From positions 1-24,755 of the IMG/VR virus record IMGVR_UViG_3300032296_000332: a DNA stretch of 24,755 bases, one strand, 5' to 3'. This stretch comes from a virus. The notes under the pieces were generated by a model, which searched no databases, had not been told where the DNA came from, and worked only from the letters and a program-made list of their open reading frames with translations. The translations under genes were made by a program, and so were the position numbers. Positions 3,112-18,893 of this stretch are shown one piece after another (the first letter of the stretch is position 1; the number at the start of each line of letters is the position of its first letter).

Positions 3112-6100
3112 TCAATCTCCAATCAAAGGTTCAAATATATTCCAGTAAAGCGATATAGCATTAGGGTCAGAACCTGCAAGAGTTCGTAGGAAATCCTTAA
3201 GGTCAGATTTAATCAGTTTCTTATAGGCATCTGCTCGATTAGTAGAACCTTGAATTCCACTTATCTGAGCCTGTGCATTGTCATATTGCATAATCATTGA
3301 TTTAAATAAAGTTCCAAGTTCTTTATTTGGAGCCAATCCATTATCAACAACTTTACGCAAATCGTTTAATGCTTCAATTTTTAGAGACTTATAACCTTCA
3401 TTCATTTCTAACTGTCTAGCAAGTAAAGGATAAGAATTCTTGAAGAATGTTTGTTCTTGTTTCCATAAGTTTCTATAATAACGCTTTACCCCAATACTTG
3501 GGTTTTCCTGTATTAAAGAATCATAATAATCTCTACGAGTATTGTACTTTTGGCGAGCCTCAGCAGTTGATGCTTCTCTCAAATACTCTTCAAGTTGTTT
3601 ATTTTTAACAAATCCCTGAGACTTTAAGTATGAGTATGACTCTAAATCATTCGTTCCATTTATAGGAATAAAGAATGATGCAGCCTGTTTGTGATTATTT
3701 ATTAAGTCTTTATTATCACGAACAAACTGTGCTGCTTCATATGATTTTTGAAATGATGCTTCAGTCTTACTTGTAGTTTTAGGAACTGTATAAACTGTTT
3801 TGGTTGGATAAAGGGTAGCAAAGGCAACTAATGCTTTACTAAAAGCATTTTCTTCATCTGCATATTTTTTAACAAATTTAGCAAATTCAGAGTCCCAGGT
3901 AAAGTAACCAGCATCAATCATTTCTTTTGGCACATCTTTAGTTGCAAAAAGTTGTACAGATGCAGGCGCTCCAAGTCCAGTTACGAACCTTAATGCCATA
4001 ATGTTGGTAGCCTGAACTATTGCTTTAACATTAAAGGAATCTAATTCGCTAGCATCTTTTGGTCCTTGACCAATTGAATTTAATAGACGCATTGCCTGGA
4101 CGGTTGCAGAAAACTTTTGCTCAGTCATCATAACTTTATCGTTACGAATACCCATATCGATTAGACGCTGAAGGTTAATTGGGGTAAACTTACGCCACCA
4201 ATCCTGGTCTGGAATTCCACCAGTAATAACTGGTTCTGCAGATTTTAAGAAACTTCCAATGCCTGGAAGATTTTCAAGAACCGCTAAAGACACTCCGATA
4301 AATGGTCCACCTAGACGTGGTGCTGCTGATTCAGGGTCAAGAGATGGAGTAAGCATTTTAACTTTTCCACCTAGATTTACTGGCAAAACTTGTGCTCCAG
4401 GAATACCCATTAACCTAAATACAGAATTTCCTAATACATAATTTAATACATCATCTCCTGGATATGTAAAATACATTTCTCCATTAGCGTCTTTATGTAT
4501 AAATCCTGAGTGCTCAAATGTTTGATTTAATATGGCAAGACGAACAATTGCTCTTTTCTCATACTTAGCAACTCTAGTTGCACGACGATAAAAGTCTTCA
4601 GTTGCCCTGTAGTAACGACCAAAGTTACGCACATTAAATGCTAGGTTAGTTCTGACGTTAGAGTTATCAATATAACCTATTGTCCTTTGACGGGCAAGGC
4701 TTAGACCAACTTCGTGTGCTTGCTTTCGTGCAAGTGAATTAGCAATTTCTAAGTCTATGCCAGAGTCAACAAGTCCTCGCATAATGTTATTTTGATAGCC
4801 AACTAAATCTTTTCTATACATAAGATAGTTGCCATAAGTAATAGGCTCTCTATCAAGAATAGCAATTTGGCGACCAATCCAGCCGTAACCATTCTTTATA
4901 ATTCTATCAAGAGTACTTACCGCATCACCTACTTGCAGTGGAATTAACTCTCTACCAAGAACACTTTTGGGTTGTTTAAAATCCTTGTTGTATTTGTTAA
5001 GTTGTTTAAAATCAAACTTATCAATTCCGCCAGAATCTTTAATATCTTTGATTAATTCTTTGTTTAATCTACCAGAGAAATCTCTAAGTGTGCTTGTGGC
5101 ATCAGCATATGCTCTTTTAGCAAGACCGTACGAACCCTCGGCCTCATAAATTGCTGACCTTTTGGCTAATTCATTTCCCTTGCCATCTAAGTACTTTGCT
5201 AAAATATCAATAACATCTTCTTCTTTTTTGTAAATATTACTAAATACAATTTGACCCCAAATGTTTCTTTTACCAATTGTATTATTTAAATCTAGATACC
5301 AACTAAGTAGGAATCCTGGTTTATTGTATTCAATTTGACTAAATATTGAAGAAAACTTTTGGTCTTTTAATGCTTCCGCAATATCAACATTATATGTTAC
5401 TGAAGGTCCATATTGATTTAAATACTTTGTTGTATCTTCAGCAACATCCATTTTAAATTCTGTTCTAGTGGAAGCACCATTAATGTCATCAATTACGTCA
5501 CGTCCACCATTGCGAATAAAATCTTCAGCGTATTCAGCATTTCTTTTGCCTTCTGCTGTTGCTAAAAATCCTGGTTTAAATCTATCTCTTGTCAGTGCAA
5601 CACCAACGGCGGTGGCTAAGTCATCGGGGCTATTTGCAAATTTAGCAATTTGCTCTTTGTCGTATGACTTATTTAAAACCCTATACAAGGTTCGAGATAG
5701 TATTCCTAGTGGGCTTACCTCAACATCTCTTTCCCTAAAGGCAGTTTTTTTAGCAGATGGGGCTATTCCTTTGCGGACCTCTTGTGACATTGCAAAACCT
5801 TTTATATAGTTTACGATGCCTTCAAGTCCTCCGATTAAACCATACGTTCCAACTTCTTCAACTGAAGTACGAATACCTAAACGAGGATATAAATTTAAGA
5901 AAGACCAAATATCTGTAACTTTTTGGTTTGCTACAGATTCTCCAACTTTACCAGTTATAGATGAAAATATATTTCCACGTAATTCAAACTTACGAAGGTC
6001 AAGCAAATTTGGCATATAGCGAGACTGAGATAATTGATAAGAGCGAACACCTCGTTGAGCACCATTTAACTCGGCAGCATTATAAATTGCAGCATCTATT

Positions 6101-8409
6101 GGTTCTAAACCTTCAATAATTTCTTTTAAAGCCTTGCGGGACTTTACAGTATTGCCCATAGTTCCGCCAAGAATTTTAAGAGATTTATCAATATCAGAGA
6201 TTGTTTCTGAAATTAAATCTTTTTCTTGTTTTAATACTGCAATTTTTTGACGGTCAAGTAATTGTTTTTTAATAGCCTTAAATGCTTTAATTTGATTAGA
6301 AATATTTGCAATATCAGCGGCGGTAGAGGCAGCAAGACGATTTGCTTTTCCTTCTGCTGTTACTATATCGGTTGCATCTGCGACTAATTTACGAACGCCC
6401 TCTGGGGCTGGCAAGCCAACTGGATTAGCAGTTCCTAATATTCTTGAAAACTCTCCCAGGTCAAGAGCACTTTGGTTTACTGAATAAAGTTCTTTTGACA
6501 TAACATCAATTTCATCAATAAACTTTTTACCACCAGCAGTAAGGTCTAAACCCATTCCATAAGCAAGGGTTTTTAACATACCCTTGTACATAAGTAAACG
6601 TTGACCTTCGGTTGCTGCAATCCAAGCAGCACGAAATGTAGATGCAGAACCTTTATCTACAACTGTTCGCATTAAACGATATACTTGGTCAGCACTTGTC
6701 GTATCTGTTAAAGATATTAAACGTTCTTGAGATGGTGCAATTGAAAATTGACGAAATAGTGAATCAATCTTAGCGGCAGTACTAGCATCTTTGGACTTGA
6801 ATCTTTTACCCTTGTCAAAACCAGTTAACCCTCTGCCAGTTACTTCTTTGTAACCAATTTTATCTGCCCAGCCAACTGGGTTTTCATCAAGTAAGCGAGC
6901 AATATCATCTACCGTGTCAGGAAGATTTAATGACGAATATTTTGAATTTGGTAAATTTTTAGTAAGCGCATCACGAACTGTGTTTGTAAGGCTACGACTC
7001 CAAGTATAGCGTGGTATTAATGGGTCTCTGCGTAGTCCAGCATTGCCTTTAACAATGTCATCAATGATATCTCCGCCTCTAAAGAACTCTAAGGCAGTAT
7101 CTGCGTCTTTAATATTAGGCGCCATATATCTTGCAACATCTAAATTAATTTCAGGGAAACGTTCTTGAACACGAGTTAATACTTTACCCTTGGTAGCAAT
7201 ATCTCCAAGGTTATACTCTTGAAATAATTTACCTAAGTTGTCCCAGTATCTACGAACACTGCGATTTCTCCACGCCTTTTCAAGATTTGCTGGATTCTCA
7301 CCTAGTTTAATTAAACCAAAACGTGCAATATCAGCGGTACGTTTAGCCTTACCTGCAATAATTAATGGGTCCAAGCCAAACGTTACGCTAAAGTCAATAC
7401 CGCCAGAAATTGAATTAAAAAACAAACTGGCTTTACCGTCGCCCATAATTGCTTTTTCGGCTTCAAACGGAAATAGACTAACTAAAGAACGTGCAACATC
7501 TCTTCCTGGGCTGATTTTAGCCTTTTCAAAACTAGCAACTGCACTACCAACTGATTTTCTTATTTCTTCATCTTCTGGTAAACCGCTTGTAAATCGATTG
7601 ACAATATTAAGAGCCTTGGGGTCAGTTAATAATTTGTCATAATAATCTATAAAGTTTTTTCTACCAGCAAGCAACTGTGCAACATAAGCGACCTCTGGAG
7701 TAAGTGTTTGTTTAATCTTTTCAATTTCACTCTTATCAAATACGTTTTCTTTATCAGATGCTTGTTCCCAAAATCTTTTCCAGTTTTGAGAATTATCTTC
7801 TACTGTTGCATCTTCCCCACCTGGTAAAAGTTCTTTGAATCCTTCGACAAAAAATCTTTCAAAAAGAAATTCTGCAGTATCGCCTTCTTCTTGGGCTATT
7901 CTTGACGCTCTATATGGTTGCTTAAGAAGTTTTTCTTGTGGGCGAACAAGCGACTCAAGAACTTTTCCAGCACCAGATGCAACACCAGTATCTTTACTTA
8001 CAGAGACAGGAAAGCCAGTGCCAAGAGTTAAAATTGCTTCTGCTGGGTTTACAGATGTTGTAGGGGTAATTGGTAATCCAGCAATTTGCATACCAAGTTC
8101 TTTAAAAGTTTGTACAGCGTAATCTGCAGATGAACTTAAACTTCTTCCAATATTTCCAAAAAAGCCTCTATCTTCTTGAACATATTTAGGGCTAAAGTAA
8201 GACTTAAGGGCTGACTGCCATTCTGGAGTTAAATTACTAAAACTTTTATATGCATCATTTTGTGGCAATGTTGTAAGAAAATCGTGTGTTTTTTTCAACT
8301 CGGTAAAAGCGGCTAATTGTTGTTTTTCTGAATTAGACAAATTAGACTGGACTGCAGCGGTGGCGACACCAGGAGACAAGCCAGCAATTGTAGTTATTGG
8401 ATTGCTCAA
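3112..8409 (-). CDS. Giant structural/virion protein, 1765 aa
   Basis: This one gene fills about a fifth of the window. It starts at a TTG (8409), one nt past the stop of the 137-aa gene, with AGAGG eight bases upstream. I recognise no catalytic domain. Visible features are a charged, probably coiled-coil region at about residues 690-750; a Tyr/Arg-rich segment near residues 1260-1325 (NFGRYYRATEDFYRRATRV, then MYFTYPGDDVLNYVLGNSVF); a hydrophobic Gly-rich segment near 1360-1390; and a highly charged helical C-terminus. Tailed phages keep one or two such giant proteins for ejection (T7 gp16-like), for a virion RNA polymerase (N4), or as multi-domain cargo. Location between portal and scaffold supports a virion part. 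Which role it has cannot be told from the sequence alone. Confidence 0.55.
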   Translation of the reverse strand: MSNPITTIAGLSPGVATAAVQSNLSNSEKQQLAAFTELKKTHDFLTTLPQNDAYKSFSNLTPEWQSALKSYFSPKYVQEDRGFFGNIGRSLSSSADYAVQTFKELGMQIAGLPITPTTSVNPAEAILTLGTGFPVSVSKDTGVASGAGKVLESLVRPQEKLLKQPYRASRIAQEEGDTAEFLFERFFVEGFKELLPGGEDATVEDNSQNWKRFWEQASDKENVFDKSEIEKIKQTLTPEVAYVAQLLAGRKNFIDYYDKLLTDPKALNIVNRFTSGLPEDEEIRKSVGSAVASFEKAKISPGRDVARSLVSLFPFEAEKAIMGDGKASLFFNSISGGIDFSVTFGLDPLIIAGKAKRTADIARFGLIKLGENPANLEKAWRNRSVRRYWDNLGKLFQEYNLGDIATKGKVLTRVQERFPEINLDVARYMAPNIKDADTALEFFRGGDIIDDIVKGNAGLRRDPLIPRYTWSRSLTNTVRDALTKNLPNSKYSSLNLPDTVDDIARLLDENPVGWADKIGYKEVTGRGLTGFDKGKRFKSKDASTAAKIDSLFRQFSIAPSQERLISLTDTTSADQVYRLMRTVVDKGSASTFRAAWIAATEGQRLLMYKGMLKTLAYGMGLDLTAGGKKFIDEIDVMSKELYSVNQSALDLGEFSRILGTANPVGLPAPEGVRKLVADATDIVTAEGKANRLAASTAADIANISNQIKAFKAIKKQLLDRQKIAVLKQEKDLISETISDIDKSLKILGGTMGNTVKSRKALKEIIEGLEPIDAAIYNAAELNGAQRGVRSYQLSQSRYMPNLLDLRKFELRGNIFSSITGKVGESVANQKVTDIWSFLNLYPRLGIRTSVEEVGTYGLIGGLEGIVNYIKGFAMSQEVRKGIAPSAKKTAFRERDVEVSPLGILSRTLYRVLNKSYDKEQIAKFANSPDDLATAVGVALTRDRFKPGFLATAEGKRNAEYAEDFIRNGGRDVIDDINGASTRTEFKMDVAEDTTKYLNQYGPSVTYNVDIAEALKDQKFSSIFSQIEYNKPGFLLSWYLDLNNTIGKRNIWGQIVFSNIYKKEEDVIDILAKYLDGKGNELAKRSAIYEAEGSYGLAKRAYADATSTLRDFSGRLNKELIKDIKDSGGIDKFDFKQLNKYNKDFKQPKSVLGRELIPLQVGDAVSTLDRIIKNGYGWIGRQIAILDREPITYGNYLMYRKDLVGYQNNIMRGLVDSGIDLEIANSLARKQAHEVGLSLARQRTIGYIDNSNVRTNLAFNVRNFGRYYRATEDFYRRATRVAKYEKRAIVRLAILNQTFEHSGFIHKDANGEMYFTYPGDDVLNYVLGNSVFRLMGIPGAQVLPVNLGGKVKMLTPSLDPESAAPRLGGPFIGVSLAVLENLPGIGSFLKSAEPVITGGIPDQDWWRKFTPINLQRLIDMGIRNDKVMMTEQKFSATVQAMRLLNSIGQGPKDASELDSFNVKAIVQATNIMALRFVTGLGAPASVQLFATKDVPKEMIDAGYFTWDSEFAKFVKKYADEENAFSKALVAFATLYPTKTVYTVPKTTSKTEASFQKSYEAAQFVRDNKDLINNHKQAASFFIPINGTNDLESYSYLKSQGFVKNKQLEEYLREASTAEARQKYNTRRDYYDSLIQENPSIGVKRYYRNLWKQEQTFFKNSYPLLARQLEMNEGYKSLKIEALNDLRKVVDNGLAPNKELGTLFKSMIMQYDNAQAQISGIQGSTNRADAYKKLIKSDLKDFLRTLAGSDPNAISLYWNIFEPLIGD

Positions 8410-8832: not shown

Positions 8833-9375
8833 CTACTTAATTTTTCTAGGTTGTTCTTTTGATATATATGGACCTGCTGTAAATGCTGTAAGTTTAGATG
8901 CAATTTCCATTGCTTCATATGCATCTGCTCCAGCGTATAGAGCACCTAGTGCATATGTAGCACCAGAGCCTGCAGCATATACCCCGTCTGCAGATTTGCT
9001 TATTGATAACTCTTGGTCGACATCAAATATTTCTCCACCAATAGCCATAATAAATTGAAATCTATTTTCTTTTGTATCTTCATCAAAGTTGTAACCATTA
9101 TCTGACATACACTTACGAAGAGAAGGCATAGCCTTTACAATCATAAAATGATACAAGTTTTCTCTGTCTTGTTTGGTTGGAACTGGTGGTTCCCAAATAT
9201 GTTGTGCAATATCGCAGGGAAGTGTTTCTCCAGAACCAGCAATTAAAAACATACCACTCTCTGAAATCTTTTTAACTTCAGGGTGAGTATAAATTCTACC
9301 ATCAGCATCAGTAGTCTGACTATCAGCAACTATAAAGCAGCGGTCTTTATATTCTAAACCGATAATTGTTGTCAT
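8833..9375 (-). CDS. Proteasome/HslV-like Ntn-hydrolase peptidase (candidate prohead protease)
   Basis: 180 aa. The N-terminus is MTTIIGLEYKD...IVADSQTT, the hallmark of proteasome beta and HslV subunits. Met removal would expose Thr as the N-terminal nucleophile. Counting from that Thr, Asp17 is in place (residue 18 of the ORF) and Lys34/Lys35 stand next to the usual Lys33. LIAGSG (44-49) and GVYAAGSGATYALGALYAG (131-149) match the conserved Gly-Ser-Gly elements around the family's active site. There is no propeptide, as in HslV. The gene sits between portal and scaffold/capsid, where phages normally carry their capsid-maturation protease; no ClpP-, S49- or U35-type protease is visible. Inference: it matures the prohead or removes scaffold. 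A role in degrading host proteins is the alternative. RBS AGGGGAC precedes the ATG. Confidence 0.85.
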   Translation of the reverse strand: MTTIIGLEYKDRCFIVADSQTTDADGRIYTHPEVKKISESGMFLIAGSGETLPCDIAQHIWEPPVPTKQDRENLYHFMIVKAMPSLRKCMSDNGYNFDEDTKENRFQFIMAIGGEIFDVDQELSISKSADGVYAAGSGATYALGALYAGADAYEAMEIASKLTAFTAGPYISKEQPRKIK

Positions 9376-11513: not shown

Positions 11514-13382
11514 TTAGTTGTAAGTTCCAGCCCATTGCTCTGCAAAGGCTTCGTCTAAATTAAGTGAACCACGTCTTGACTGTTGCGCTCTTGTAGCCCA
11601 TCGATTATTTTGGTATTGCCCAATTCGTGTTGATTGTTGCATTAATTCACGTATGCGTATAACCGCAAACCATAAAGCCATTACACAGTCAGTAGGGTTC
11701 TTAGTATCAGGCTTCCAAGTAATAAGTTCTTGAACTAAAGTCTTAAGACCTTCAGAGCCTTCATTGCTTGGTAATTCTATTATATTGTTGTCTTGAAATC
11801 TACCATCTCTGGTTGAGCCAAAAAGGCTTGCCATAGATGCTACACCAAATCCGACATCCCACTTATTCTTGCCAGTAAAGTGTGAGTTAAGTTGGCAACC
11901 GTATTGGGCTAAGTAGTTTCTTAAATTATCATCCAGGGCGTAAGCCTTTTGGTGGGCGTTAATTTCAATTCGTATTTCTTGTGGCTTGTATTTAGGGACC
12001 CACTCTTCAATCAAGTTTTGAATCTTGGCTGGTGTAGGGTCTGTCATATTAATACAATCTAAAACATATATCTTTCCATCAGCACGGTTATAAGAAACAA
12101 CTACCGCTCCTGTTGCTCCCGCCATTGCTGGGTCGAGGCCAATAACTGTATATGTAGATTCACAATGCTTCGGATGTCCTGGGACTCCAGGCTTGAGAGG
12201 TCCTCTTTTTCGCATTCCATTAACGCTACCTGCGACACAGGTTGGAGAAAAGATTGAATTTTCTGTGACATCTTCTTGCTGGTAGACCATAGCCCAGACA
12301 GATGGGGCCACTTCAGAGCGTCTCGTAAATAGCGAGGGTCCGTCCCACTTAGGGAACAGCCCTTCCTCATTTGCTTCATCTTTTTCGCCCTCTGGTCTAT
12401 CGGTCCAAGGCCATAAGGTTTTCCAGTTGGCTGGCTTTTCATCAAATTCTAAAACTGCTGGTTGGGCGAAGTATGTGAAAGGAGACTTGCCTCCAGTCCA
12501 TTGTCCGCCATCCCTAATCATTTTATATAAATCAATTGAGGAGACACGGGTTCCTACTACTAGCAGTTTTCCGTGCCGCCCCAAACGTGTGATAACTTCT
12601 TTTTGAAGCCATTCAATTTGCTTTTCCCATTCGTGGGCATTTGAGTTCATCACAACGTCATCTAGGATAATTAGGTCTGCTCTTGCACCGTAAATCTGAG
12701 ACCCAAATCCTAAAGCCTGTACCGTAGGGTCCTTCTCACCAGAATCTCTTCCAGTGCCTAGGTAAATCATATCTGCTGACCATTGAGTAGCGTCAGCCTT
12801 ATATCCGCCATTAGGACCGAAGGCGGTCTGGAGTTTAATAAAAGCGGGGTGGCTAAGACGAGTCTTAATCGCACCTAAAAATTTTCTAGCCATACCCTGA
12901 GTCTTAGAGACGATAATTACTCTTGAGTTAGGGTTGGTAACAATTTTATATAAAACGTAATTTATGGTTACGGTTGTAGACTTAGCGTGTTCAGGGGGTA
13001 CGTTAATCAACACACGGTTGTCAGCACCTGGCTCGTAGGTCATAGATGGATGTAGCCACCTAGGAGTCCTACCCTCAATCAGGTCAATCCAATCAAGGTG
13101 GTGTTCAAACAACTTAGTATCTAGGAACTGCTCTGAGAAGTCAGGGAAGGCTATAGATTTCAAATCCCCTAAGTCAGCGATAACTCCCTTACCCATAAGG
13201 CGGGCCTTATCGGCTCTTTCTTTAAAGGCGGGGTCCTGCATCGACCATTGGCGAAAGGTAACATCATTACGACCAACGGATGCCATAGCGGCTGTAATGG
13301 TAGAACCTTGCTGTAATTGTATTAAAACTTTTTCTTGGGCCTCGCCCTTTGGTATATTTTGTATCCCTGGCTTTCGTCCCAT
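11514..13382 (-). CDS. terL: Terminase large subunit with N-terminal HTH extension
   Basis: 622 aa packaging motor. The ATPase half has a Walker A variant PPEHAKST (129-136), Walker B LIILDD (237-242) and a LLVVGTRVSS motif (273-282) fitting the coupling motif. The nuclease half has VIGLDPAMAG with Asp417, RIEIN with Glu473 and PTDCVMAL with Asp565, the three acidic positions of the RNase H-like terminase nuclease. Residues 27-60 (GSTITAAMASVGRNDVTFRQ, then WSMQDPAFKERADKAR) look like the helix-turn-helix of a small terminase subunit placed at the N-terminus. No separate small-terminase gene is seen in the window. ATG at 13382 is preceded by AAGGGG. It is the first gene of the morphogenesis operon. 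Confidence 0.95.
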   Translation of the reverse strand: MGRKPGIQNIPKGEAQEKVLIQLQQGSTITAAMASVGRNDVTFRQWSMQDPAFKERADKARLMGKGVIADLGDLKSIAFPDFSEQFLDTKLFEHHLDWIDLIEGRTPRWLHPSMTYEPGADNRVLINVPPEHAKSTTVTINYVLYKIVTNPNSRVIIVSKTQGMARKFLGAIKTRLSHPAFIKLQTAFGPNGGYKADATQWSADMIYLGTGRDSGEKDPTVQALGFGSQIYGARADLIILDDVVMNSNAHEWEKQIEWLQKEVITRLGRHGKLLVVGTRVSSIDLYKMIRDGGQWTGGKSPFTYFAQPAVLEFDEKPANWKTLWPWTDRPEGEKDEANEEGLFPKWDGPSLFTRRSEVAPSVWAMVYQQEDVTENSIFSPTCVAGSVNGMRKRGPLKPGVPGHPKHCESTYTVIGLDPAMAGATGAVVVSYNRADGKIYVLDCINMTDPTPAKIQNLIEEWVPKYKPQEIRIEINAHQKAYALDDNLRNYLAQYGCQLNSHFTGKNKWDVGFGVASMASLFGSTRDGRFQDNNIIELPSNEGSEGLKTLVQELITWKPDTKNPTDCVMALWFAVIRIRELMQQSTRIGQYQNNRWATRAQQSRRGSLNLDEAFAEQWAGTYN

Positions 13383-13443
13383 TACGTGCCCCTTAAATCG
13401 GTCATATAACGCTACCCGTTAAACGGCATAACTGTGGTCGTCT

Positions 13444-13511
13444 CCTACTTCGTAGGTTAAATATTTATATATTATATTCAACGAACGAGGAGCCAAAACG
13501 ACGAGTTCGTT
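13444..13511 (-). promoter_or_regulatory. Candidate promoter and leader of the morphogenesis operon
   Basis: On the minus strand a perfect TATAAT (13476-13471) lies 16 nt after a weak -35-like TTTTGG (13498-13493). An inverted repeat AACGAAC/GTTCGTT (13480-13486 with 13505-13511) brackets that spacer and could be an operator. Downstream, in the leader, is a hairpin CCTAC-GAA-GTAGG (13456-13444). The terminase ATG is at 13382. The -10 is good, the -35 poor, so an activator or phage-modified polymerase may be needed. Inference only. Confidence 0.4.
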
Positions 13512-13564
13512 TGAACTCTGTAGTTTTAACTACATATATAGATAACCTGTTGGAAGTAGTAAAA

Positions 13565-13590
13565 CCGAACACTAGGTTCGGATATATTTT
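13565..13590. terminator. Hairpin with U-rich flanks, possible bidirectional terminator
   Basis: A 6-bp stem CCGAAC/GTTCGG with a 5-nt loop (13565-13581). On the plus strand it is followed by ATATATTTTTAAAAA; on the minus strand by TTTTACTACTT. It lies upstream of both divergent operons, so it could insulate them or end an unannotated short transcript from this hub. The plus-side U-run begins after 4-5 nt, so the terminator is not ideal. Confidence 0.35.
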
Positions 13591-13691
13591 TAAAAATGTC
13601 CTATTTATGGCACTTTGTGCCTATATTATAGGGGGGATATAACAAAAAATTTTGGAGGAAGAGTACAGTATAGTATTGCACGCAGATTAAA

Positions 13692-13731
13692 TAACCGTGG
13701 GTCAAAACCCTCAACCTCTACCTGACGGTTA
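13692..13731 (+). other. Extended stem-loop in the control hub
   Basis: Outer arms TAACCGT (13692-13698) and ACGGTTA (13725-13731) are perfectly complementary over 7 nt. A second hairpin GGGT-CAAA-ACCC (13699-13710) stacks directly on the outer 5' arm. This is compatible with a small structured RNA or a DNA cruciform at an origin. No function can be assigned. Confidence 0.35.
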
Positions 13732-13937
13732 GACACACACCTGACCCCTAGGCACACCCTTATCCTTTGCACTTGGCTAGGTTTTAAAGTCTTTTCTTGG
13801 GGTAATAAATAAATACTTATGGCGTGCGTCTATCCCCCCTGCACTTATCCCCCCCTTATAAATGGAATTCAAAAGAACTTAATCAATAATCCAGAGGGCA
13901 CAAGGTCTCACATATTGAGACAATCACCCCACCCAAT

Positions 13938-13970
13938 TATAACGAAAGTGTTATACAAATATCCTTGACA
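13938..13970 (+). promoter_or_regulatory. Palindromic operator plus consensus -35 for the plus-strand operon
   Basis: TATAAC-GAAAGT-GTTATA (13938-13955) is a perfect 6+6 palindrome with a 6-nt spacer. A consensus -35 TTGACA follows at 13965-13970. The best -10 at 17-nt spacing is CATTCT, which is poor. Nearly the same palindrome occurs at 15183-15198, also upstream of a TTGAC. The pair suggests a phage or host regulator controlling the small-gene operon. Confidence 0.5.
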
Positions 13971-14042
13971 AGCCCCCCGCCCCGTGTCATTCTTCATTCA
14001 CTAGCCCAAGCAACCACGCAAGGGCAGGACAGGAGCAAGGCA

Positions 14043-14237
14043 ATGAAATACCAAGTAAAAGAAAATGATGGTAAATGGCAGGCAATAATCTCTAATCCAG
14101 TTCTTAACTTAGATAGGGTTTATACCTATGATGAGAAAGAACAGGCGGAGTATAGAATTGAGATGGAAAAGCAACAGGTGAACGATTGGCTTTCCACAGT
14201 TTCCAAATTATCCGATTATTTCAAACCACAGAACTAG
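14043..14237 (+). CDS. Small hypothetical protein, first of the plus-strand operon
   Basis: 64 aa, starting MKYQVKENDGKWQAIISNP. No domain is recognised; the sequence is a short beta-rich start followed by a charged helix (YDEKEQAEYRIEMEKQQVND). The ATG at 14043 has ACAGGAG eight bases upstream. A longer frame reaching back to a TTG at 13965 overlaps the -35 element and is rejected. The stop codon lies inside an 18-nt repeat (14232-14249) also found at the end of the 14515-14688 gene. Expected to be an early, host-directed small protein by position only. Confidence 0.6.
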   Translation: MKYQVKENDGKWQAIISNPVLNLDRVYTYDEKEQAEYRIEMEKQQVNDWLSTVSKLSDYFKPQN

Positions 14238-14249
14238 CAACACCGCCCC
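14232..14249 (+). repeat. Module-end repeat, copy 1
   Basis: AACTAGCAACACCGCCCC. The TAG inside is the stop of the preceding gene (14235-14237). An identical 18-nt copy lies at 14683-14700 in the same position relative to another gene's stop. Each copy is followed by a GC-rich structured leader. Confidence 0.75.
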
Positions 14250-14350
14250 CCGCCCGCTAACGACGGCGACGGCTCAAGACCGACAGGGGGCACGCAATTA
14301 CCTAGGCGGGAAATACTCGCTCAGGATTTGCAAGAAGACAGGAGCAAGAA
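14250..14350 (+). promoter_or_regulatory. Structured leader, copy B
   Basis: Ordered landmarks shared with the leaders at 14701-14797 and 15219-15305: GGCTCAAGACC (14271-14281), GGGGGCAC (14286-14293), a long hairpin CCTAGGCGGG-AAATA-CTCGCTCAGG (14301-14325; one mismatch, two G-U pairs), TTGCAAGA (14328-14335), then a GACAGGAG ribosome-binding site (14337-14344) before the ATG at 14351. Sequence differs between copies while the hairpin position is kept, as expected for a functional RNA. Confidence 0.55.
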
Positions 14351-14515
14351 ATGACACGCAAAGACTTTGAACTCATAGCGGAGGTTATCGCTACAAGTTG
14401 GCACGGCAATGGGGAGTTAAAATTCCAACTCTCCCACAATATGGCGGACAAGTTAGAAACCACTAACCCCCGCTTTAATCGGGAACTATTTCTAACCGCT
14501 TGCGGGGTGAACTAA
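14351..14515 (+). CDS. Small hypothetical phage protein (54 aa)
   Basis: 54 aa, MTRKDFELIAEVIATSWHGN at the start and FQLSHNMADKLETTNPRFNR in the middle, ending FLTACGVN. The pattern (MTRKDFELIA..., TNPRF, FLTACG) resembles a small protein found in many unrelated phages, with no function I know. The ribosome-binding site GACAGGAG is 6 nt upstream and sits just after the leader hairpin. Its stop overlaps the next gene's start (TAATG at 14513-14517), so the two are translationally coupled. Confidence 0.7.
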   Translation: MTRKDFELIAEVIATSWHGNGELKFQLSHNMADKLETTNPRFNRELFLTACGVN

Positions 14516-14688
14516 TGGCATATGACCCAGACAATCAAAGCCACCACTTAATTCTAGACTTGGTGGACAATATGCAAAGTTTTAAGGATTTTGATAACGC
14601 CATAAGCGTGCTAATTGAATGGGGTTTGATTGATGCCGAAATTGGCGCACAAGCCCCCGAAATGTGGACGGAGACGGAAGAAAACTAG
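14515..14688 (+). CDS. Small acidic hypothetical protein (57 aa)
   Basis: 57 aa, strongly acidic, MAYDPDNQSHHLILDLVDNM at the start. Probably two helices, ending in GAQAPEMWTETEEN. No domain is recognised. Its ATG overlaps the preceding stop by 1 nt and a GCGGGGTG stretch precedes it. A TTG at 14500 in frame is ignored because it would overlap more and lacks a better site. The stop lies inside the second copy of the 18-nt module-end repeat. Being acidic and small, it could mimic DNA or inhibit a host protein, but nothing specific supports that. Confidence 0.6.
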   Translation: MAYDPDNQSHHLILDLVDNMQSFKDFDNAISVLIEWGLIDAEIGAQAPEMWTETEEN

Positions 14689-14700
14689 CAACACCGCCCC
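14683..14700 (+). repeat. Module-end repeat, copy 2
   Basis: Identical over 18 nt to 14232-14249 and placed in the same way, with the stop codon of the preceding gene inside (14686-14688). The two upstream proteins are not alike, so the repeat is not explained by gene duplication of the coding part. Confidence 0.75.
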
Positions 14701-14797
14701 GCCTCCTTAACCAGAGGGCACAGGCTCAAGACCTGAGCGGGGCACAAGGTAAGGCGGGAGACACCCGCAGACCTTACAAAGAAAGACGGGGGAAATA
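14701..14797 (+). promoter_or_regulatory. Structured leader, copy C
   Basis: Landmarks in the same order as copies B and D: GGGCAC (14716-14721, within a 12-nt match to 13891-13902), GGCTCAAGACC (14723-14733, identical to copy B), GGGGCAC (14739-14745), then a two-part hairpin AAGGT...ACCTT enclosing GCGGG-AGACA-CCCGC (14746-14775). A GACGGGGG ribosome-binding site follows and the ATG is at 14798. The distance from hairpin to ATG is 22 nt (25 in B, 28 in D). Confidence 0.55.
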
Positions 14798-15031
14798 ATG
14801 AAATGGCACATAAGGAGAGGGAGAGTTTACAAATCCATAAACGGGACGGCTAAGGCTCATCTTTTTTATTGGGTAAAGCAAGAGGGGGCTTACCACTTTG
14901 TGGCGGGTTATTATGGATTTGGGCAAGATGTCCAATTTCAGGGCTTAACCTTTAAAACTGCGGGAGAGGCTAAGAATTACTGCGCCACAAAGGACGCTCA
15001 GGCGGTAATAATTGAGGAGGTGGGGGCGTGA
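14798..15031 (+). CDS. Small basic hypothetical protein (77 aa)
   Basis: 77 aa, MKWHIRRGRVYKSINGTAKA at the start. It is beta-rich, with aromatic residues (HLFYWVKQEGAYHFVAGYYG) and a helical end (FKTAGEAKNYCATKDAQAVI). I do not recognise a family; the strand-strand-helix order could be a small nucleic-acid-binding fold, but that is speculation. The start has GGGGG upstream, at the end of leader C. The stop overlaps the next gene's GTG start by 3 nt. It is one of a series of leader-headed small genes. Confidence 0.65.
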   Translation: MKWHIRRGRVYKSINGTAKAHLFYWVKQEGAYHFVAGYYGFGQDVQFQGLTFKTAGEAKNYCATKDAQAVIIEEVGA

Positions 15032-15186
15032 TTGACTTAAAGAACTTATTCACCATTTCGTTAGACGATTATGGCTTGGTAGTTCAAGGGTATTTCGGAG
15101 ATGTTTATATTCCTTGGCGCACTCTAATCCTTGGCCTGCTTGTAATTACGGGGCTTAAGATTTGGAGAAGGTGGCAAGATAGATAA
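15028..15186 (+). CDS. Small single-pass membrane protein (52 aa)
   Basis: 52 aa starting at GTG (15028), which overlaps the previous stop (GTGA). GAGGAGG lies upstream. The sequence MIDLKNLFTISLDDYGLVVQ... is followed by one hydrophobic helix TLILGLLVITGLKIW (about residues 32-46) and a basic end RRWQDR, so the predicted orientation is N-out, C-in. This ORF is short, but the start overlap, good ribosome-binding site and clear membrane segment support it. It may act at the host membrane (for example superinfection exclusion); unproven. Confidence 0.6.
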   Translation: MIDLKNLFTISLDDYGLVVQGYFGDVYIPWRTLILGLLVITGLKIWRRWQDR

Positions 15187-15224
15187 CGAAATTGTTATAA
15201 GAAACAAAGCCCTAACCCTTGACG
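15183..15224 (+). promoter_or_regulatory. Second palindromic operator with a -35-like TTGACG
   Basis: ATAAC-GAAATT-GTTAT (15183-15198) matches the palindrome at 13938-13955, sharing ATAACGAAA, then TGTTATA. TTGACG follows at 15219-15224. The gap from the palindrome to the TTGAC is about 20 nt here and 9 nt in the first copy, close to one DNA helical turn apart. No convincing -10 is seen at 17 nt. The operator overlaps the stop of the preceding gene. Confidence 0.5.
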
Positions 15225-15305
15225 GGGGCACGGTGAGCAAGACACCATAGGGCACGGGGTAAGGCGAATGCCTAACCTTGCAAGACTAGACGGGAGACTA
15301 GAAAA
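15219..15305 (+). promoter_or_regulatory. Structured leader, copy D
   Basis: GGGGGCAC (15224-15231), GAGCAAGACACC (15235-15246), GGGCAC (15250-15255), hairpin GGTAAGGC-GAAT-GCCTAACC (15258-15277; one A-A mismatch), TTGCAAGA (15278-15285) and GACGGGAG before the ATG at 15306. The order and spacing are those of copies B and C; GGTAAGGCG is shared directly with copy C. Confidence 0.55.
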
Positions 15306-15752
15306 ATGGAAAATAAAGTAAAGGGCGTGGAGTTATTGGCTACGCTTGAGAAAATTAAAGGCGGAGAAACTTACGACATCTTTAACCTGTTGCCAGATAT
15401 TGCAGGGGGTAGCGTGTGGTTAGATGAAATCAAAGACACCGCAATGTATGTCCAAGGTTATGTTAATGCTTACGAGGATTACAGCATAGATGACCTTAGA
15501 GATTACGGGCACGAGTATGCAAACGGGCAATGTGAAACCTATTACAAAAACATAAATGACGAGGTGCAAGCCTTGAGCCTATGGGCTAGTAATGAAATCG
15601 ACGAAGGGGTGGCAGAGTTAGCGTCAGATATAGAACCAAAACTTACAACTTTGCAGAGCCTTTATTTATTCGTGGCAAAGCGTATGGTATGGGACGCAGT
15701 AGTAGACCAAACCTTTCAACACACAACACAAGACGAATTGGTGGAGGCATAA
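15306..15752 (+). CDS. Hypothetical acidic protein (148 aa)
   Basis: 148 aa, acidic and mostly helical, with no family I recognise. Visible segments are KGVELLATLEKIKGGETYDI, DDLRDYGHEYANGQCETYYK and a long helix at the end (LTTLQSLYLFVAKRMVWDAV). There is no Cys-pair, nucleotide-binding or membrane motif. The ATG follows leader D. Its stop (15750-15752) is directly abutted by the ATG of the next gene. It is the largest protein of the small-gene modules and could be their main effector, but only position suggests that. Confidence 0.65.
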   Translation: MENKVKGVELLATLEKIKGGETYDIFNLLPDIAGGSVWLDEIKDTAMYVQGYVNAYEDYSIDDLRDYGHEYANGQCETYYKNINDEVQALSLWASNEIDEGVAELASDIEPKLTTLQSLYLFVAKRMVWDAVVDQTFQHTTQDELVEA

Positions 15753-17180: not shown

Positions 17181-17266
17181 GCATAACAGTATTCTTCCTC
17201 CTATTACTTGTGCTCAGATACCACAGAAAATGGCTTACCTATTGGAGAAGTTGGAGGACTAGATGA
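17177..17266 (+). CDS. 29-residue membrane microprotein
   Basis: MSITVFFLLLLVLRYHRKWL is followed by TYWRSWRTR. A hydrophobic helix of about 10-12 residues is followed by a strongly basic, Trp-rich tail. Both ends overlap neighbours with ATGA (17177-17180 and 17263-17266), exactly the pattern of real coupled genes in this operon. The small, basic, membrane-facing shape would suit a membrane-interacting peptide; its role is unknown. Confidence 0.5.
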   Translation: MSITVFFLLLLVLRYHRKWLTYWRSWRTR

Positions 17267-17514
17267 GTATAATTGCTGAGGTGTTAATGCCACCTGAGTG
17301 GACTAAAAAGGCGTTGTGTGCTGAGGTAGACCCTGAGATATTCTTTCCCGACAAAGGGGAGAGGACAGCCCACGTTAAACAAATATGTAAAGCCTGTATT
17401 GTCAAGGTAGAGTGCCTTGAATATTCGATACAGAACAACGAAAGGTTTGGCGTATGGGGCGGACTAACGGAACACGACAGACGCAAGGTAAGAGCAAGAA
17501 AAAAGGTAAGTTAA
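17263..17514 (+). CDS. whiB: WhiB-family Fe-S transcription regulator
   Basis: 83 aa. Cysteines at 19, 42, 45 and 51 (C, then QICKAC, then VEC) give the C-x(22)-C-x(2)-C-x(5)-C pattern that binds a [4Fe-4S] cluster. FGVWGGLTEHDRRK (62-75) is the GVWGG turn followed by the basic DNA-contacting tail (KVRARKK). WhiB-like proteins are specific to actinobacteria and their phages and act with the sigma factor of RNA polymerase. Phage members such as WhiBTM4 are known to alter host transcription. ATG at 17263 overlaps the preceding stop by 4 nt. The sigma-like protein at 18243-18893 is a possible partner (inference). Confidence 0.95.
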   Translation: MSIIAEVLMPPEWTKKALCAEVDPEIFFPDKGERTAHVKQICKACIVKVECLEYSIQNNERFGVWGGLTEHDRRKVRARKKVS

Positions 17515-18094: not shown

Positions 18095-18261
18095 TGCCAA
18101 CATATGAATATAAATGTAATGTATGTGGTGGGCAACAAGAACTTAGTAAGGCGCACGACGACGAGACAATACCTGTTTGTTGTGATACAAGTATGACACG
18201 TTTATGGTCTGCCACTCCTACCATTTTTAAGACAGGTGGATTTTATTCTACAGGTGGTTGA
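18094..18261 (+). CDS. FmdB-type zinc-ribbon protein (55 aa)
   Basis: 55 aa, MPTYEYKCNVCGGQQELSKA at the start and TPTIFKTGGFYSTGG at the end. The MPTYEYxCxxC opening and the late PTIFKxGGFY motif are the signature of the FmdB putative regulator / CxxC-CxxC-SSSS zinc-ribbon family. The second metal site here is CC (VCCDTS), not CxxC. In the host family these are small regulatory proteins; the phage role is unknown. It is the last gene of the plus-strand operon and its end overlaps the converging sigma-like gene by 19 nt. Confidence 0.8.
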   Translation: MPTYEYKCNVCGGQQELSKAHDDETIPVCCDTSMTRLWSATPTIFKTGGFYSTGG

Positions 18262-18893
18262 GGTTCTTCAGTTTCAGGTAAATCTTCATCACGAAAAGGT
18301 TTAAATCCTCCAACTTTATTAATCAATTTCTTTATTGCACGTTTATTTCTCATACGAGCAGTGTCTTCACTAGGTAGTTTCATCTCATCTGCAATTGCTT
18401 GGAAGTCCATACTCTCAGAGTAGCGAAGGAACAATAACTTCCTATCTTCTTTACCCAACTTCCAAAATCCTGCATCAATTTCAATCATCATTGCCATTAG
18501 ATTTCCTCCTTCGGAGGGAGCAGAGGGACGAGCAGTGCCACCAAGATTTAATTTATGTGCAAGGTTTATCTCACCCCTTAAGACAGAGGGCAACAAGGCT
18601 TCAATCATATCTGCTTGGTAAAAGAATAGGTCAGAGGTTTCATACCCACCTGTCTTTGCTTTCCAAGCCTGACAATAATCTAGTGCTTGATTGCGAAGCG
18701 AACGATAGATTAAATTCTTTGCATCTTTCTCACCTATTGCTTCCCAAGTATCTAGTTTATTTGGGTGCTCAACAAACCATTGATATAGATTTTGTTTTAT
18801 ATCTTGTATATCAATCTTAAATTTAAGTTGATATTCAGAGGCAACAGAGTCCACAATGTAGTCCCACTTTTGTATTCTATTCCATTCAATCAC
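18243..18893 (-). CDS. Sigma-factor-like protein
   Basis: 216 aa. The C-terminal half has a sigma-70 region-4-type HTH: EDRKLLFLRYSESMDFQAIA (about 152-171), then DEMKLPSEDTARMRNKRAIK. The N-terminal half (DIQDIKQNLYQWFVEHP..., IYRSLRNQALDYCQAWKAKT) is similar to the sigma-like proteins of other actinobacteriophages. It may act as an ECF-like sigma for late genes, or as a non-canonical transcription factor. The weak -35 sequences seen upstream of the phage operons would suit an alternative sigma. GTG at 18893 overlaps the previous stop (GTGA). It is the last gene of the leftward early operon and is convergent with the FmdB gene. Confidence 0.7.
   Translation of the reverse strand: MIEWNRIQKWDYIVDSVASEYQLKFKIDIQDIKQNLYQWFVEHPNKLDTWEAIGEKDAKNLIYRSLRNQALDYCQAWKAKTGGYETSDLFFYQADMIEALLPSVLRGEINLAHKLNLGGTARPSAPSEGGNLMAMMIEIDAGFWKLGKEDRKLLFLRYSESMDFQAIADEMKLPSEDTARMRNKRAIKKLINKVGGFKPFRDEDLPETEEPQPPVE

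Follow-up and report, generated by a model that had tools for sequence, protein, structure and literature searches.

A three-way-junction RNA element between exchangeable small genes of freshwater actinophages, a putative intercistronic punctuation

The early mRNA of bacteriophage T7 carries R sites, which are long hairpins cut by RNase III. A second group of natural processing sites is formed by tRNA-like substrates of RNase P, such as the mitochondrial t-elements and the precursor of the C4 RNA of phages P1 and P7 (reviewed in PMC4919922), and in plastids an intercistronic expression element allows unrelated genes to be stacked in one operon through intercistronic cleavage (PMC2230500). The nearest described phenomenon to the element reported here is the pair of repeats known from Cluster K mycobacteriophages, namely SAS, a conserved 13-bp DNA sequence (GGGATAGGAGCCC) of unknown function, about half of whose copies come with an inverted repeat, and ESAS, a conserved 17-bp inverted repeat (PMC3203893).

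The DNA analysed here, referred to as the window, is the whole of the 24,755-nt phage record IMGVR_UViG_3300032296_000332 (IMG/VR). Its TerL is 85% identical to those of the cultured phages LanE43-AprE7 and LanE43-AprF5 (E7 and F5), the hosts of which belong to Ca. Planktophila landstejnensis, order Nanopelagicales (PMC10202952). Starting at position 14043 and extending rightwards, divergent from TerL, lies an array of small genes in which three structured leaders are found, each sitting between two small genes; the three are copies of one RNA class. The 660-nt divergent non-coding region that separates TerL from the array (13383-14042) holds paired TATCCCCCC repeats (13831 and 13846), several hairpins and a TTGACA at 13965, and is a candidate packaging, origin or early promoter region. 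Elsewhere, the window encodes a WhiB-family transcription factor (17263-17514, Pfam E 9e-23), typical of actinophages, and a minus-strand protein (18243-18893) with weak, below-cut-off similarity to sigma-70 region 4, a sigma-70 factor having been reported as encoded by the cultured relatives. A 180-aa protein beside the portal gene (8833-9375, minus strand), with sub-threshold proteasome/Ntn-hydrolase similarity (E 0.0097), could be a protease, and a 1765-aa ORF amid the structural genes (3112-8409, minus strand) takes up about one fifth of the window.

The core of the element, recognised when 80 related contigs were compared over this region, forms a three-way junction that measures 47-50 nt in the window. 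It is composed of P1 (7 bp, with GCC at its 5' end and GGC at its 3' end), P2 (3-5 bp) and P3 (4-5 bp, capped by a 7-nt NKCRMRA loop), and is followed by AC. A complete unit reads stop codon, a spacer of usually 5-9 nt, the P1/P2/P3 junction, AC, a variable hairpin P4, a Shine-Dalgarno site that is left open, and finally the start codon. A preliminary description of this DNA had listed ordered motifs shared by the three leaders, and these are present and can now be placed on the fold: 'GGCTCAAGACC' is hairpin P3, and GGGGCAC combines the 3' strand of P1 with the conserved AC, while 'TTGCAAGA', attributed to all three, occurs in leaders 1 and 3 but not in leader 2. The hairpins it described are P4 in all three leaders, with the arms as given, but they represent only the outer part of the structure, the diagnostic junction core upstream having been overlooked, and the third leader begins at 15209 and not at 15219. 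The two identical 18-nt boxes AACTAGCAACACCGCCCC are present at 14232-14249 and 14683-14700, but do not exist as free-standing boxes, each being made up of stop codon, spacer and 5' strand of P1. The features concerned are the following.

11514-13382, minus strand: TerL
14043-14237, plus strand: first small gene of the array, 64 aa, its TAG end lying in the first 18-nt box
14245-14293, plus strand: element 1 core, P1/P2/P3 three-way junction and trailing AC (covariance models and fold), beginning 7 nt past that TAG
14294-14331, plus strand: element 1 hairpin P4 (RNAfold, z-scores)
14337-14344, plus strand: element 1 Shine-Dalgarno site GACAGGAG before ATG 14351 (from sequence), unpaired in the fold
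14351-14515, plus strand: small gene, 54 aa, TRKDFELIAEV family (ORF and clustering)
14515-14688, plus strand: small gene, 57 aa, no family match, overlapping the previous stop by 1 nt, its own TAG lying in the second 18-nt box
14696-14745, plus strand: element 2 core, three-way junction and AC (covariance models), beginning 7 nt past that TAG
14746-14775, plus strand: element 2 hairpin P4 (fold)
14785-14792, plus strand: element 2 Shine-Dalgarno site GACGGGGG before ATG 14798 (from sequence)
14798-15031, plus strand: small gene, 77 aa, no family match (ORF)
15028-15186, plus strand: small gene, 52 aa, no family match, overlapping the previous gene by 4 nt
15209-15255, plus strand: element 3 core, three-way junction (P1 GCCCTA/TAGGGC) and AC (covariance models), beginning 22 nt past the TAA of the preceding gene
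15256-15279, plus strand: element 3 hairpin P4 (fold)
15289-15296, plus strand: element 3 Shine-Dalgarno site GACGGGAG before ATG 15306 (from sequence)
15306-15752, plus strand: gene of 148 aa behind element 3, no family above cut-off (ORF)

The promoter-proximal gene of the array has no element before it, while later genes have; the TRKDFELIAEV protein behind element 1 belongs to the largest downstream cluster and weakly matches phrog_19432, a family of unknown function. A covariance model built from a 14-sequence seed (R1) scores the three cores at 26.0, 51.9 and 50.4 bits, and a broader one (R2) at 45.5, 62.7 and 49.4 bits, the R2 E-values of 1.2e-6, 1.9e-10 and 1.6e-7 excluding a chance origin of the window copies. 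The search set behind these values includes the model-building loci, but the two cultured phages are independent of it.

Across 185 distinct contexts, the core lies at a median of 47 nt from the start codon (quartiles 44-52), and the preceding stop codon is mostly found 5-9 nt upstream of P1. The coupling of the element to the preceding stop is as tight as that to the next start; the median stop-to-start distance is 104 nt. Where the stop codon is farther away, another hairpin, often GNRA-looped, frequently abuts P1, and a P1-abutting hairpin is found in 55 of 184 copies (counts out of 184 exclude one partial R2 match, with a core starting AGT, that is present among the 185 contexts). All 184 copies have A or C at position -1, and P1 is for that reason not extended by pairing to the A that follows it; AC stands directly after P1 in 176 of 185, and the bottom of P1 is nearly invariant. 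In the predicted fold of the leader, the Shine-Dalgarno site has a median unpaired probability of 0.95. The downstream ORFs, typically of 50-100 aa, fall into 53 unrelated clusters (163 ORFs assigned), which agrees with the earlier observation of unrelated small genes behind a shared structured RNA.

The covariation is overwhelming, and the elements are under RNA-level selection. Over 86 distinct aligned rows, 98.7% of the pair cells hold standard pairs, as against 70.2% in shuffles and at most 50% with slid partners, although covariance-model alignments are fitted to the structure and the percentage is thereby biased upwards; doubly changed cells number 311 against 71 in shuffles, and 13 of the 15 pairs show changes on both sides. 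P1 occurs in 27 sequence versions (e.g. GCCCCGC/GCGGGGC, GCCACGC/GCGTGGC, GCCTTGC/GCAAGGC and GCCCTAA/TTAGGGC). The P4 segments have a median folding z of -3.29, with z below -2 in 130 of 149. Of the 33 doubly changed P4 pairs in leaders that can be aligned, 29 are retained, compared with 29 of 59 for slid partners. A test that is not fitted to the model, and hence free of the bias, is given by E7 and F5, in which one gene (MAKFFEIGLDRFGF...) is preceded by orthologous leaders: a C-G pair in P1 corresponds to A-U, a G-C pair in P3 likewise to A-U, and P4 differs as well, with the fold kept in both versions. The compensatory-like variation noted earlier in the hairpins thus consists of true compensatory changes, and a covariance-model search of the kind proposed as a check returned both strong covariation and further copies before unrelated small genes. 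Plain recent duplication of a spacer is ruled out, since the P1 sequences are all different in 49 of 57 multi-copy loci, with covariation, and since the element persists in phages with TerL identities of 43-50%.

Comparisons between phages show that leader and gene behave as one unit in gain, loss and exchange. When the window is set against locus L002 or L004, leaders 1 and 2 appear as islands of about 120 nt with 89-94% identity, flanked by non-homologous genes, and a unit of E7 comprising one leader and two genes is missing in F5, at whose junction the 5' end of the first E7 leader is joined to the body of the second, a joint of the kind that recombination between leaders would give. These two comparisons support the exchangeable-cassette part of the first reading, and homologous recombination is sufficient to account for the exchange, which the element, as shared homology between otherwise unrelated genes, would help along.

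The carriers form one family of freshwater (and related) actinophages. R1 finds 98 copies and R2 106 copies in 81 records (764 kb), and all of the latter lie on the small-gene strand, upstream of TerL and within about 2.7 kb of it (for the 89 measured copies, at 842-2676 nt from where TerL starts), with 1-4 copies per phage fragment. E7 has three copies, and F5 one by R2 and another by alignment; since R2 missed this real copy, the copy counts are lower bounds. The pattern AGGTTCACGACCTANNNNGGCAC is found in 79 IMG/VR contigs, among them those of the distant phages just mentioned, which have the element at the same place. R2 gave 137 matches at E <=1 on the pattern-selected loci together with eleven bacterial loci, just one of them, at 18.6 bits, being in a bacterial locus. 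Among bacteria, a pattern scan of 257 Gb returned 11 matches, about the number expected by chance on the analysis's own estimate, none of which R2 backs apart from the one at 18.6 bits; R2 under strict filters, run without a positive control, found none in 297 class-level bacterial genomes, and no relative of the TerL was found in GTDB contigs. R2 likewise has no match in the Streptomyces phages Stella and ZooBear (L175 and L176, about 38.4-44.9 kb; TerL about 45% identical). Nearly every gap between their leftward small genes contains a strong long hairpin, often with a second one, and behind it a common AAGGGAGAG-like ribosome-binding site; this is possibly an analogous punctuation system.

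The reading favoured here, with a probability of roughly 0.45, is that the element serves as intercistronic RNA punctuation. It would fold as the transcript behind the stop codon emerges, and the folded element would mark where one cistron of an early multigene transcript gives way to the next, such that each small gene may become an independent unit with structured, protected ends and an isolated, free ribosome-binding site that does not depend on its neighbours. Unrelated genes would be swappable because of that independence. A neutral boundary is favoured over gene-specific control because the downstream proteins fall into so many unrelated clusters, and the hairpins of Stella and ZooBear in the same intercistronic gaps also count for punctuation.

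Arrangement in a distant subgroup of the elements (P1 GCCACGC and similar) bears on this choice. In 11 of its 21 copies a strong sigma-70-like promoter with 10-11 of 12 matches, where shuffles give 2.6% at 9 of 12, follows 3-23 nt after the element, mostly at 3 nt (as in L085, L089, L126, L084, L148, L136 and L090), and in four promoter-proximal copies (L096:4411, L148:4509, L090:10097 and L136:4331) a promoter-like site overlaps the element. The sites read TTGACA-17-TATACT or similar, and those after the element have their -35 box within a CTTGACAAGCCGTCAAG-like palindrome. The order of stop codon, element, promoter-like site and next gene suggests that here the element acts as a boundary behind the upstream gene and not as a leader, since it need not be present in the mRNA of the next gene, a point that also counts against the favoured reading. 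It is because of this arrangement that a boundary is preferred over a control leader, and that a 3'-end role is kept as a candidate.

With respect to control, the preliminary description had proposed a common RNA control element, of which the common element stands, with control of the downstream gene as a candidate function. Such a cis-regulatory leader, in which a phage or host protein or a ligand would bind the junction and switch translation of a small regulon, could draw on the fixed distance to the start codon, on the one to four copies in front of unrelated genes, and on the near-invariant bottom of P1 and the U-turn/GNRA-like KCR of the P3 loop, which could be a protein-recognition site. 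It is nonetheless rather unlikely, and less probable than punctuation, in that the predicted fold leaves the Shine-Dalgarno site open, the junction nucleotides are few, variable and unlike known ligand pockets, no Rfam riboswitch matches, the coupling to the upstream stop codon is equal, and the subgroup promoter-like sites lie downstream of the element. An alternative in which the fold shields or sets the 3' end of the message before it, as a terminator-like structure or exonuclease barrier, fits the tight coupling to the stop codon and the order seen in the distant subgroup; a T tract is found after none of 184 cores and none of 162 P4 hairpins, no terminator-like site lies at the window elements on the plus strand, and P4 and the start-codon spacing are conserved in the main group, which makes this explanation somewhat less likely still than the regulatory one.

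Transcription antitermination by a put-like RNA, easing the passage of RNA polymerase along the early array, would agree with a structured nascent RNA in a single orientation near the start of that array, but the elements occur in several copies per operon and always at cistron boundaries, while put and nut sites are located near the promoter, and the proposal is improbable. An attC-like folded cassette recombination site acting at the DNA level, suggested by the position at the 3' end of each small gene and the exchange of modules there, has hardly any probability left, given that core sites GTTRRRY/RYYYAAC occur in 0 of 184 copies, that no integrase is among the window proteins scanned (part of the ORFs), that RNA-type loops are conserved and that ordinary homologous recombination explains the exchange.

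Several known identities were tried and rejected. The element is not a tRNA (ARAGORN predicts none in the window, the core is built of just three helices, CCA occurs in 0 of 184 copies and no Rfam tRNA matches in the loci tested), nor an intrinsic terminator, given the lack of T tracts and the negative plus-strand scan of the window, nor a hammerhead ribozyme (CUGANGA/GAAA in 0 of 184 cores, no Rfam match). A T7-type RNase III site would be a hairpin of about 20 bp with an internal loop, against a longest conserved helix of 7 bp here. For SAS, the window has one match to its sequence, with 2 mismatches, in the portal gene region, at a chance expectation of 0.33. A stop-codon read-through stimulator is rejected because the frames of the next gene show no preference (0:40, 1:58, 2:58) and the read-through frame is open beyond the next start in only 34 of 156 cases. 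Rfam 15 gives no match in the window at the gathering threshold, and at relaxed E-values only chance matches to eukaryotic RNAs outside the elements, in keeping with the initial statement that no such family had been described; the RNA element class is previously undescribed.

To return to intercistronic punctuation, its most likely route, a speculative one, would be recognition of the P1-P3 stack by a host RNase, whose cut at P1 or close by would part the messages. In its dimensions the stack matches the acceptor/T half of a tRNA, with 7 (or 6) bp, a 5-layer stem and a 7-nt loop carrying K55, C56 and R57. Among 135 distinct cores, 21 have a 5-bp stem exactly abutting P1 together with a 7-nt loop, and 7 of these have the full T-loop consensus NKCRANY (TTCGATT, TTCAATT, TTCGAGT, TTCAACC, TGCAAGT and TGCGAGT); most cores outside this set have loops of the TTCACGA type, which fit the T-loop incompletely and keep the U-turn/GNRA-like KCR. 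In a search for the 3' RCCA of RNase P substrates, AC was present, but no copy has C at position 75 or a CCA, which leaves these elements short of one determinant for bacterial RNase P, and the hairpin abutting P1 in some copies could hinder the enzyme. Polycistronic mRNAs and phage RNAs are among the known targets of RNase P (PMC4919922), and on this account putative processing at the tRNA-half-like fold is plausible. The specific proposal that the elements are minimal tRNA-half mimics, an acceptor/T-arm stack without an anticodon arm, at each of which host RNase P and/or RNase Z cuts, is doubtful, and falls between the regulatory and the 3'-end explanations in probability.

In concrete RNA terms, the element offers an account of how unrelated and exchangeable small genes can stay expressible in phage arrays. 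Its carriers infect, or are related to phages that infect, Ca. Planktophila (Nanopelagicales), which are among the most abundant freshwater bacteria, and it is testable because two carriers are in culture (PMC10202952). Since the Streptomyces phages fill the same position with other strong hairpins, intercistronic punctuation may be general in the early arrays of actinophages. The element may also reveal tRNA-like cutting as an RNA-processing route that is not known to punctuate phage messages; were the elements indeed tRNA-half mimics, they would yield independent messages and freely exchangeable small genes, a viral counterpart of mitochondrial tRNA punctuation.

Compared with the known systems, the element resembles the T7 R sites in being structured and in separating small early cistrons of one transcript, but has short helices (P1 of 7 bp, P2/P3 of 3-5 bp) in a three-way junction in place of long hairpins. 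It resembles tRNA punctuation and tRNA-like substrates in its end-paired 6-7-bp stem, 5-layer stem and 7-nt T-like loop, in the unpaired base at -1 and in the A and then C past the stem, but has no anticodon arm, D arm or CCA, and the full T-loop consensus is confined to 7 of 135 cores. Like the plastid intercistronic expression element, it is short, lies between cistrons and allows unrelated genes to be stacked, but organism, sequence and enzymes are different, and cleavage is putative here. SAS and ESAS (PMC3203893) are likewise repeated, close to the ribosome-binding site and placed before many small genes of different families in actinophages; they conserve their sequence, whereas the element described here varies in sequence and conserves the structure of its three-way junction and P4.
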